Positions 36,502 to 39,560 of a stretch of DNA of 64,000 bases are shown piece after piece. The number at the start of each line of letters is the position of its first letter. Within the stretch, counting starts at the first letter, position 1. The notes under the pieces are model-generated. The model saw nothing but the letters and a program-made list of their open reading frames with translations. It ran no database searches and was not told the DNA's origin. Both the position numbers and the translations under genes were made by a program. The stretch comes from Acidobacteria bacterium AB60 (GTDB taxonomy: Bacteria; Acidobacteriota; Terriglobia; Terriglobales; Acidobacteriaceae): the NCBI GenBank assembly GCA_008682415.1, contig VANK01000002.1:62001-126000 (forward strand), in the 5' to 3' direction.

Positions 36502-37368
36502 ATGAAGCTCGGCCTGATCGCCGGCAACGGGCGCTTCCCTTTCCTGCTCCTGGAGGCGGCGCGGGCCCAGGGATTCGCCGTGACTGTGGCGGCGATTCGC
36601 GAAGAGACCGATCCGGAGATCAACCATCGTGCTGCCGCGGACGAAAAGATCACGGTGACGTGGCTGTCGCTGGGCGAGCTTTCGCGGCTGATCGAAACCT
36701 TCCACAAGGAAGACGTGAAGTTGGCTGTGATGGCGGGCCAGGTGAAGCACAAGCAGATCTTCTCGTCGATCCGGCCGGACTGGCGGCTGGCCAAGCTTCT
36801 GCTGAACCTGCGCACGCGAAATACGGACATGCTGCTGGGGGCGGTGGCCAAGGTGCTGGCCGATGAAGGCATCGAGTTGATCAGCTCTACGGCGTTTTTG
36901 GAGCCGTTGCTGGCCGAGGAGGGCGTGCTCACCGCGCGCGCGCCGGATGACGAGGAGCGCAAGGATATCGAGTATGGGTTGGGCGTGGCGCGGGCGGTGT
37001 CCGGGTTCGACATCGGGCAGACGGTGGTGGTGGCGGCCCAGGCATGCGTGGCGGTGGAGGCCATGGAAGGCACCGACGCGGCGATTGCCCGGGCCGGGGA
37101 GCTGATGCGGTCGCTGGAAGAGGATGCGCCCGGCGAGGCTTCGACGCTGCGGCGGAGACTCACGGTGGTCAAGGTGGCGAAGCCGAAGCAGGATATGCGA
37201 TTCGATGTTCCGGTGATCGGGATCCGCACGCTGGAGGCGATGAAGAGCGCCGGGGCGAGCTGTCTTTCGGTGGAGGCGGGGCGCACGCTGCTGTTTGACC
37301 GGGATGCCCTGATCGGGCGCGCCAATGAGGAAAATGTTGCAATTATCGCGGTTCCGCGCGGATACTGA
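36502..37368 (+). CDS. lpxI: UDP-2,3-diacylglucosamine pyrophosphatase LpxI
   Basis: Hydrolyses UDP-2,3-diacylglucosamine to lipid X; LpxI replaces LpxH in organisms lacking that enzyme. The 288-aa protein has the DUF1009 features IAGNGRFPFLLLEAARAQG at the start, VMAGQVKHKQIF, FDIGQTVVV near residue 170 and the FDVPVIGIRTLEAM segment, with AVPRGY at the end. It lies 2 bp after lpxA in the same operon. The family call is firm. Confidence 0.94.
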   Translation: MKLGLIAGNGRFPFLLLEAARAQGFAVTVAAIREETDPEINHRAAADEKITVTWLSLGELSRLIETFHKEDVKLAVMAGQVKHKQIFSSIRPDWRLAKLLLNLRTRNTDMLLGAVAKVLADEGIELISSTAFLEPLLAEEGVLTARAPDDEERKDIEYGLGVARAVSGFDIGQTVVVAAQACVAVEAMEGTDAAIARAGELMRSLEEDAPGEASTLRRRLTVVKVAKPKQDMRFDVPVIGIRTLEAMKSAGASCLSVEAGRTLLFDRDALIGRANEENVAIIAVPRGY

Positions 37369-37418
37369 GGAGCACAAGGCTCTTCTCCCCACATCTGAAC
37401 CGAAACTGGAGGAACACT

Positions 37419-37580
37419 ATGGATCCCTCATTGAAGCCGCCTGTTGGCACGTCGGAACTGGACGGTGCTCTGGAAGGTCTGAACTCCGAATCTGATTTCT
37501 CGCTCAAGCCGCCAGTGGGCAGCGAGTTCGACTCCTTGAAGCCGCCGGTAGGATCAGAGTTCGCCGAAGAGGCCCAGTAG
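37419..37580 (+). CDS. 53-aa protein with three SLKPPVG repeats, unknown
   Basis: This small ORF has a strong Shine-Dalgarno TGGAGGA ending 5 bp before ATG 37419. It contains SLKPPVG at residues 4-10, 28-34 and 39-45, followed by S/T and E, with GSEFD or a variant. Repeats 2 and 3 differ at about nine bases, nearly all synonymous, so the peptide rather than the DNA is conserved. The protein is acidic and has no signal peptide or membrane helix. It lies 50 bp after lpxI on the same strand. I do not recognise a family; a repeated motif for binding or a multi-core precursor peptide are both conceivable. Confidence 0.7.
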   Translation: MDPSLKPPVGTSELDGALEGLNSESDFSLKPPVGSEFDSLKPPVGSEFAEEAQ

Positions 37581-37790
37581 CCCGGGCGACTGCTTCCGAA
37601 CTGACGGACCCCCGAGTCCAACTTCATCGTTCTCGACCTTCGCATCGCGAGGGGAAACGTGTGGGCCATCGATCGGGGCCTTGTGTTGGGGCCCTGGGGT
37701 TTGCCGTGCGTGGTGTCTTGCGCGGATACTGGTTGCGCAGGGTTTTCCCCGATGTTCCGCCTGCACGATATCCAGATCGATGGAGGTCTC

Positions 37791-38345
37791 ATGAAGAAGT
37801 TTGCACGCCTGGCCGGCGCGGCAGCGCTGGCGCTTGCCCTGATTCCGATGGCGGTTCTGGCTGCTGACCAGACGATGCCCGCCCCCGGACAGACCGCTCC
37901 CACGTTCACTCTTCCCTCGCAGGACGGCACCAGCATTTCTCTGGACAGCTTTCACGGGAAGTGGGTCGTCTTGTACTTCTATCCCAAAGACATGACCCAG
38001 GGCTGCACGATCGAGGCCCACAATTTCCAACGGGATCTTTCGAAGTTCGAGGCGGACAACGCGGTGATCGTGGGGGTAAGCGTGGATACCCCGGACAGCC
38101 ACAAGCAGTTCTGCACGAAGGAAGGACTGACGTTCCGGCTGCTGGCCGATCCGGAGCACAAAGTGGTGGACCAATACGGCTCTCTGGGGCACTTTGGCAG
38201 CGCCACAATCGCCATGCGGAACACATTCCTGATCGATCCGCAGGGCAAGGTGGTGAAAGTGTGGACCAAGGTGGATCCGCAGCACCACTCCGAAGAGGTG
38301 CTGGCGGCTTTGGATGAGATGAAGAAGTCCGCCGGAACCCGATAA
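37791..38345 (+). CDS. Exported peroxiredoxin, BCP/PrxQ type
   Basis: The 184-aa protein has a signal peptide (MKKFARLAGAAALALALIPMAVLAAD) and a peroxiredoxin fold: GQTAPTFTLPSQDGTSISLDSFHGKWVVLYFYPKD, then MTQGCTIEAHNF with the peroxidatic Cys. Most family members read TPGCT here, so Gln replaces the usual Pro. A second Cys, in KQFCTKEGL, is in position to resolve. It reduces peroxides in the periplasm. Start is at 37791, preceded by GGAGGT. Confidence 0.9.
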   Translation: MKKFARLAGAAALALALIPMAVLAADQTMPAPGQTAPTFTLPSQDGTSISLDSFHGKWVVLYFYPKDMTQGCTIEAHNFQRDLSKFEADNAVIVGVSVDTPDSHKQFCTKEGLTFRLLADPEHKVVDQYGSLGHFGSATIAMRNTFLIDPQGKVVKVWTKVDPQHHSEEVLAALDEMKKSAGTR

Positions 38346-38365: not shown

Positions 38366-38833
38366 TTGCCCCCTACACCTGTCGCCGTGAAATTCCGGGC
38401 CGATCTCGAGGAGCTGCAGCGGAGGCTCTCGGCGATTCCCGCGCAACTGGCAGACTCTCCCTGGGCACCGGGAAAGTGGACCCGCAAGCAGGTTGTCGGA
38501 CACTTGCTCGATTCCGCGGCGAACAACCGGCAGCGGTTTGTACGGGCGTCCCTTGATGGTGTCTACGCGGGCCCCAAGTACTCTCAGGATCTCTGGGTGG
38601 CGGCTCACGGCTACGCCGATCAGTCCTGGGAGGACCTGCTGCAGTGGTGGAAGGTCGAGCACCAGATCCTGGCGGCAGTGGTAGACCGCATCGCGGAGGA
38701 TCGACTGGAAGCTGCCTGCACGGTCGGGGACAACGCACCGGTAACACTGCAATTCCTGATCGAGGATTACGTGGAACATCAGCAGTGGCATCTTCGGCAG
38801 ATCGACGGGAAGGGACCGGAGGGAAGGCAGTAA
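38366..38833 (+). CDS. DinB-family protein
   Basis: The 155-aa cytoplasmic protein has a DinB/YfiT-like bundle: WAPGKWTRKQVVGHLLDSAANNRQRFVRASL with the first His, and FLIEDYVEHQQWHLRQIDG with the paired His residues that complete a metal site. Function in this family is usually unknown. The start codon is TTG at 38366 with GGAGA upstream. It is 20 bp after the peroxiredoxin gene, probably in the same operon, and ends at a bidirectional terminator. Confidence 0.85.
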   Translation: MPPTPVAVKFRADLEELQRRLSAIPAQLADSPWAPGKWTRKQVVGHLLDSAANNRQRFVRASLDGVYAGPKYSQDLWVAAHGYADQSWEDLLQWWKVEHQILAAVVDRIAEDRLEAACTVGDNAPVTLQFLIEDYVEHQQWHLRQIDGKGPEGRQ

Positions 38834-38849
38834 ATCTGAATCCAGACGC

Positions 38850-38880
38850 AAAAAAGCCCGGCGCGATGCCGGGCTTTTTT
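38850..38880. terminator. Bidirectional Rho-independent terminator
   Basis: A-run, GCCCGGC, loop GCGAT, GCCGGGC, T-run. It serves the DinB gene from the left and the histone-like gene from the right. Confidence 0.93.
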
Positions 38881-38910: not shown

Positions 38911-39435
38911 CTACTTCTTCTTGGCAGGCGCCTTCTTTGCGGCCTTCTTTGCGGGGGCCTTCTTGGCTGCCTTCTTCGCCGCCTTCTTGGCAGGAGCTTT
39001 CTTCGCTGCCTTCTTGGCGGGCGCCTTCTTTGCTGCTTTCTTTACGGCCAACTTTTTACCTCTTGAAGTGGATTTACTGGCGCTCTTGCCGGCTGCTTTT
39101 TTGGCAGCCTTTCCGCCCTTCACGCCAGCACTGCTCTTTTTCGGGGCGGATTTCTTCGCAGCCTTTTTGGCCGCAGCCTTTTTCGCAGGCGCCTTTTTGG
39201 CAGCCTTCTTTGCGGGAGCTTTCTTTGCGGGAGCCTTCTTGGCCGGCGAGGACGCCGGGGCGTCAGTTGGAGCGCTCTCCGGCACGCCCTCGTCGTCATC
39301 GGAGGAGGTCAGCACGCTGGAGGTTTCGATCTCTTCGTCTTCTTCGTCCAACTCATCATCATCCGCGTCCATATCCGCGGGCTCGGTTAGGTCGTCGTCT
39401 GCACTCATTGCGTACATTCTCAAAACTTCATCCAT
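38911..39435 (-). CDS. Histone H1-like Lys/Ala-rich protein with acidic N-terminus
   Basis: The 174-aa product has an acidic first 50 residues (DDDLTEPADMDADDDELDEEDEEIE) and a basic repetitive C-terminal two-thirds made of KKAPAKKAA and similar units, the pattern of bacterial H1-like DNA-binding proteins. The chain is polarised, unlike most KAPAKK proteins, which are basic throughout. I chose ATG 39435 because GGAGG lies 7 nt upstream; ATG 39408 is a possible internal start. It probably binds DNA; the acidic half may regulate or bind partners. Confidence 0.8.
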   Translation of the reverse strand: MDEVLRMYAMSADDDLTEPADMDADDDELDEEDEEIETSSVLTSSDDDEGVPESAPTDAPASSPAKKAPAKKAPAKKAAKKAPAKKAAAKKAAKKSAPKKSSAGVKGGKAAKKAAGKSASKSTSRGKKLAVKKAAKKAPAKKAAKKAPAKKAAKKAAKKAPAKKAAKKAPAKKK

Positions 39436-39560
39436 TCCCATGCCTCCAGCGGCTGGCGCTCGACTGCTGCGGACTTAGATGACTCCGCATGCGGAAGCCA
39501 TTGTAGCAATAGCTTGCATGCAAAGACCATCAAAAGACAAGTATGTAGTGAGGCTCATCG

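Follow-up and report, generated by a model that had tools for sequence, protein, structure and literature searches.

A predicted microprotein at an acidobacterial lpxI-peroxiredoxin locus carries repeated S[VL]KPP motifs that also occur in peroxiredoxin tails

What might a gene of 53 codons do when its product repeats one short motif and ordinary homology searches find it in a single genome? We addressed this question for an open reading frame (ORF) at 37419..37580 on the plus strand of a 64,000-nucleotide stretch of contig VANK01000002.1 from Acidobacteria bacterium AB60, referred to here as the window. The ORF stands between the lipid A gene lpxI (36502..37368, plus strand) and a gene for a peroxiredoxin (prx) of the AhpC-TSA family (37791..38345, plus strand), and the next gene of the locus encodes a DinB-like protein (38366..38833, plus strand; Pfam DinB_2). 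A preliminary description had placed the ORF behind lpxI, and Pfam matches to LpxI_N and LpxI_C confirmed the identity of that anchor gene. The same description proposed that the peptide is under selection and may serve either as a repeated binding motif or as a multi-core precursor of the graspetide kind.

Results

Coding signals and repeats of the ORF

Judged from its sequence, the ORF looks like a real gene that is translated and under selection. Its start lies 50 bp from the lpxI stop, and the strong ribosome-binding site noted at the outset is indeed present, as a GGAGG at 37408..37412 (plus strand), six bases before the ATG. GC content by codon position is 0.63/0.44/0.69, the same order as in six neighbouring genes, with a third-position value below their 0.78-0.84. 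When scored with a codon-usage table built from these six genes, the ORF was the sole positive frame of six, at merely 4.6 bits. The product, MDPSLKPPVGTSELDGALEGLNSESDFSLKPPVGSEFDSLKPPVGSEFAEEAQ, has no signal peptide by eye and is probably a soluble, disordered microprotein; a single-sequence model, which is a weak test of disorder, gave a pLDDT of 65.5, a pTM of 0.20 and one helix at residues 12-21. Rfam returned no match above gathering score between 35 and 40 kb of the window, a simple scan of 37200-37900 found no promoter or terminator, and the spacer 3' of the ORF folded no better than shuffled versions of itself (z 0.43).

Three SLKPPVG copies lie at 37428..37448, 37500..37520 and 37533..37553, all on the plus strand. 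The three SLKPPVG-S/T-E motifs described earlier are thus present as to their SLKPPVG part, but the first repeat, SLKPPVGTSELD, has one extra residue relative to the others, and one further stretch of unit length, ALEGLNSESDF, lacks the core. Repeats 2 and 3 have ten residues in common (SLKPPVGSEF), and the earlier estimate of about nine mostly synonymous differences proved accurate: 9 of 30 bases differ, third codon positions account for 6 of these differences, and 9 of 9 are synonymous. In simulated sets of nine substitutions, the peptide was kept in 0 of 2 x 300,000 (two transition biases), and a repeated hexapeptide of any kind arose in 56 of 200,000 residue shuffles of the window peptide.

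Homology searches and relatives at the same locus

Searches with the window protein found no convincing relative (genome counts include its own genome). The whole protein had one match in its own genome and convincingly matched only itself among 80 genus genomes (best other E 0.12); no convincing relative was found among 60 relatives (best other E 0.23), 398 family genomes (four others, E 0.017 to 0.034) or 297 phylum genomes (best other E 0.063). The 27-residue repeat half retrieved 20 others from 399 class genomes at E 0.09 to 0.5, none of them convincing. The genome_contigs collection, viral contigs and phages gave no match, and plasmids matched solely at E of 6 or more. A portion of the weak matches was inspected by eye and judged to be other frames of unrelated genes. 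The protein had no match to a Pfam family (E up to 1), an NCBIfam family (E up to 10) or a PDB chain (E up to 10), and a genus search with the insert DNA gave no other convincing copy (the best other match spans some 30 bases at E 0.006). In the literature collection searched, we found no publication on the motif, or on a peroxiredoxin together with a linear motif in Acidobacteria.

Pattern searches were of two kinds, both blind to SVKPP variants. Paired KPPVG motifs occurred in 60 stretches of genome_contigs, none of which looked like a relative by eye. Single S[LF]KPP[VIM]G sites were present in 87 of 398 family genomes, and the 30 loci that were read appeared by eye to be antisense or chance frames with no second copy. 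Sites of this type occurred in 10 of the 80 genus genomes and were clustered solely in the window's genome (G000, three sites) and in G382 (two sites). As a separate observation, two loci from the paired-KPPVG search, L055 and L096, have similar-looking repeats; L096, on the minus strand of an Acidobacteria MAG (gp13 AA74), has an ORF with a hydrophobic start and two terminal IPKPPVGAT repeats, a likeness judged by eye.

Relatives emerged when gene order was followed instead. lpxI was matched in 73 genus relatives, and the stretch behind it was read in 69; in the other four (G031, G369, G376 and G379) the lpxI match stops at a contig end. The next gene after lpxI is a related small ORF in 2 of the 69. 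The G382 member has two SLKPP copies (SLKPPVGT and SLKPPIGT), and the G389 member, about 180 bp after lpxI, reads SVKPP, EIKPP, SVKPP. A further member, in G395, lies 80 bp after prx and has five SVKPP copies. For seven of the 69 relatives there was no wide stretch, and their gaps were covered by a scan for KPP motifs and by a ribosome-site-filtered scan, G020 by the filtered scan and by direct reading, without yielding a member; both scans overlooked the G389 member. At E up to 2, the genus search covered all three genomes and listed none of the three genes, giving only a single unrelated place in G395; these homology searches therefore overlook true members. The preliminary description had made conserved orthologs a test of the gene; a plain search would have failed to supply them, and synteny did so.

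By comparison of the four predicted microproteins (51 to 56 aa), their only conserved content is several S[VL]KPP copies on variable linkers. Spacing, linkers and net charge differ (-8 in the window, +1 in G382, +3 in G395 and -8 in G389), and beyond the core nothing could be aligned by eye except partly similar starts: MTNS is common to G382 and G395, and LNPxSVKPP to G395 and G389. G395 and G389 do not conserve the V, G, S/T and E that follow KPP, so that of the motif as first described the S[VL]KPP core has held and the remainder has not; the conserved Glu/Asp assigned to it is absent, with no acidic residue conserved across the four members. Individual units also depart from the core (SFKPS and SIEPH in G382, EIKPP in G389). 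Ribosome-binding sites similar to that of the window precede the G382 and G395 genes, and that of G389 is weak. None of the four members had an NCBIfam match or a Pfam match above cut-off (G382 had one sub-threshold Pfam match), and the G395 member found no convincing relative among PDB sequences.

The five units of the G395 member are contiguous and allow core and linker to be compared within one gene. Pairwise, core codons were identical in 30 cases, synonymous in 20 and nonsynonymous in 0, a zero that follows in part from picking copies by peptide; linker codons were identical in 3, synonymous in 9 and nonsynonymous in 28. Although the units were located via the motif, the contiguity of the array means that no unit was left out. 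Read from these codons, the core is held and the linker is not, and in both the G395 array and the window repeats a conserved core stands between divergent flanks, as expected of a docking microprotein. Across all genes, 22 motif copies comprise 21 distinct 15-mers encoding three peptides, which is weak evidence because the copies were chosen by peptide; synonymous differences between genes outside the window carry the same qualification, since copies there were found by peptide. The earlier suggestion of selection on the peptide is supported by the synonymous differences of the window and by relatives that keep little beyond the core.

The position of the small gene is not fixed. It stands before prx in the window and G382 and after prx in G395, and G389 keeps it with no prx found in its 6.8-kb stretch. 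In a tree of 59 LpxI proteins, from which G382 was omitted since a contig end truncates its lpxI, carriers were scattered and many forks unsupported; loss in most lineages and repeated movement both fit this distribution. Separately, 7 of 40 relatives showed no match to prx in the roughly 900 bp next to lpxI: L349 (G389), L353 (G019) and five other loci. G019 is the tree neighbour of G389, and no small gene was seen in it.

The motif in peroxiredoxin tails

Sequence comparison shows that, in the loci of six relatives, the adjacent and apparently exported prx has a C-terminal tail with one to four copies of the same core. An SVKPP tail was present in 6 of 61 complete prx C-termini (59 loci, window included; four further loci are cut or broken). 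The tails of G391, G013, G364 and G395 have one SVKPP, that of G229 has two, and that of G359 has three plus one SVRPP. No motif tail is present on the prx of either the window or G382. Among the four genomes in which the small gene was seen, G395 also has a tailed prx. The string PNSVKPP is identical in the G395 microprotein and in the prx tails of G359 and G229. G391 and G013 (loci L024 and L029) have two tandem prx genes with the tail on the first copy, which is about 51-52 percent identical to the window prx and ends in SVKPPIVH; the second copy is 82-84 percent identical and lacks this end. By eye, tailed prx have signal-peptide-like starts, as does the window prx, and the microproteins have no signal peptide. 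The presence of the core in a neighbouring enzyme's tail in some relatives favors the repeated binding motif of the preliminary description.

In the data read, the motif is nearly private to the lpxI-prx locus. A scan of 1.04 Mb of DNA surrounding the locus (62 relatives and the window) in every frame of both strands, with serine restricted to TCN, found 23 sites able to encode S[VLIFM]KPP, of which 21 fall in microproteins or prx tails and two elsewhere (L303 and L312, minus strands). Among 942 predicted CDS around the locus, called by a program that missed three known carriers, there were 17 matches in 7 proteins, all microproteins or prx, and four permuted motifs gave 0. In 864 kb of the window's own genome (691 predicted CDS), [ST][VLI]KPP occurs three times, all in the window ORF; four permuted motifs gave 1, 0, 1 and 1 matches there, so the argument is one of exclusivity, not frequency. 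Likewise, across 311 kb and 236 CDS of G229 the motif matches the prx tail alone.

A probable duplicated lpxI end

In both the window and G382, the spacer that separates the ORF from prx probably contains a worn copy of the lpxI 3' end, whose stop TGA reads TGG by eye. In the window this putative copy occupies 37687..37731 (plus strand), and a 12-bp direct repeat joins 37356-37367 to 37720-37731. When 68 lpxI ends of relatives were aligned to each spacer, 12 scored above every one of 50 shuffles with the window spacer and 13 with that of G382; an earlier test of the window spacer had given 7 of 29 better than 100 shuffles. We regard this as a moderate signal for a duplicated end. The two spacers align to each other with a score of 60, where 200 shuffles reach at most 49, and the window and G382 may descend from one common insertion at the lpxI end.

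Discussion

We think there is roughly an even chance (about 0.5) that the microprotein is a selected, probably disordered array of S[VL]KPP docking motifs for one partner protein, the motif being carried on the prx tail as well. A docking motif is suggested because five residues stay constant while their number, spacing, charge and gene position vary. S[VL]KPP would be the docking peptide itself, several motifs of one microprotein would bind the partner at once, and the microprotein would either serve as an adaptor or compete with the prx tail. Copy number and linkers would be free to vary because the motif alone makes contact. The shared tail suggests either a common partner for microprotein and prx or the descent of one from the other. 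The main difficulty for a docking array is that tailed prx look exported and microproteins lack a signal peptide; because the two may be sorted to different compartments, a common partner could be reached before export only. Few and scattered carriers, the G389 gene with no prx in its stretch, and the units that stray from the core in G382, G389 and the window also count against it.

At the level of class, the nearest likeness is to disordered microproteins and tails whose function depends on short linear motifs: a short conserved core occurs in several copies on variable linkers, within sequence that is probably disordered, and recurs as an enzyme tail. The members described here differ in having no Pfam or NCBIfam family above cut-off and a motif that, in the data read, is nearly confined to one locus. 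C-terminal cargo or targeting peptides of enzymes, such as encapsulin cargo peptides, are a further comparison, the common feature being a short and sometimes repeated C-terminal peptide on a peroxide-reducing enzyme. The present case differs in its motif, S[VL]KPP, in the apparent export of the tailed enzyme, and in a microprotein that bears the motif on its own, with no cargo attached.

More specific, and held only tentatively, is the idea of S[VL]KPP as a portable docking tag, able to move between exported prx, where it sits at the C-terminus, and stand-alone cytosolic microproteins at lpxI. The microprotein would then be a multivalent mimic of the tail, occupying or recruiting the tail receptor before export.

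It is also possible, if rather doubtful, that the microprotein is a detached prx tail: an ancestor of prx whose tail held multiple SVKPP copies would have split or lost its catalytic part, leaving a tail that works beside or instead of the fused one. The same motif on both proteins at the same locus fits such a history, as do the letter-identical PNSVKPP, the arrangement in G395, where a microprotein with five motifs lies 80 nt behind a prx whose tail has one, and the extra SVKPP-tailed prx of G391 and G013 at the place where the window has its microprotein. Against it, the microproteins have their own start sites with partly similar starts (MTNS; LNPxSVKPP), the gene precedes prx in the window and G382, by the probable duplicated lpxI end, and a search there with a prx query revealed no catalytic remnant.

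Ribosomes slow at Pro-Pro, which EF-P relieves, and repeated Pro-Pro could make the array a translation device that controls a neighbouring gene or paces prx export. This would account for the occurrence of a single motif, with Pro-Pro in every copy, in a cytosolic ORF as well as in an exported protein, but S and K are kept though such a device does not need them, Pro-Pro is followed variously by V, I, Q, T, E, S, R, A or P, and a gene found before, after or without prx has no fixed downstream target; we consider it unlikely. A regulatory leader peptide of prx was considered separately and is unlikely because the gene stands before prx (G000, G382), after it (G395) or without it, and not at a constant upstream position.

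A multi-core RiPP precursor, graspetide-like or other, with S[VL]KPP as core and its maturase encoded elsewhere, would suit the short size, the repeated units and the copy number of 2 to 5. Graspetides of the microviridin type have TxKxPSDxE cores in which hydroxyl and Lys donors meet Asp/Glu acceptors in a fixed pattern, and resemble the present case in a small precursor with repeated Lys-containing units. Here that core and any conserved Asp/Glu pattern are absent. The best match to the RimK-type ATP-grasp family (PF08443) in the window's own genome scored 20.3 bits, below the curated cut-off of 21, whereas 13 of 14 control genomes lay above it, and five neighbouring proteins scanned with Pfam included no ATP-grasp. 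A graspetide is unlikely because ligase and acidic pattern are both missing, and the proposal in the preliminary description is not supported on these grounds and since the motif sits on a folded exported enzyme. For RiPP precursors in general, that tail and the lack of NCBIfam or above-cut-off Pfam matches in all four members leave the idea quite improbable.

Least probable is a chance frame, or debris in decay that arrived together with the duplicated lpxI end. Detection in one genome by ordinary searches, an insert flanked on either side by a copy of the lpxI 3' end and a coding score of only 4.6 bits might suggest it. It is contradicted by differences that are all synonymous, by a composition like that of coding sequence, by ribosome sites and by the three other members that share the motif.

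If the docking array is correct, it represents a microprotein family unseen by plain homology searches and definable by a five-residue core plus synteny, and the same motif on an enzyme tail offers a concrete handle on microprotein function. The partner could be fished directly with a short motif peptide. It would also show that an apparent orphan ORF, one for which sequence searches return no relatives, can still have them at the same place.

Other features of the locus

Several smaller observations concern the surrounding DNA. A hexamer (TTGCAA or TTGCCG), 18 nt and GATACT follow one another at the lpxI end (37337-37366) and again before prx (37701-37730). GATACT overlaps the lpxI stop in many relatives by eye and is possibly a promoter -10 for prx, though the simple promoter scan found none. 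Between two convergent genes, a GC-rich hairpin at 38850-38880, with an A run and a T run on its flanks, is likely a two-way terminator, and sub-threshold Rfam leader matches overlie it. Facing the operon on the minus strand (38911-39441) is a Lys/Ala/Pro-rich, histone-H1-like protein with weak sub-threshold Pfam matches only; it has an acidic start (MYAMS..., TSSDDDE), and similar proteins lie near the same place in several relatives.
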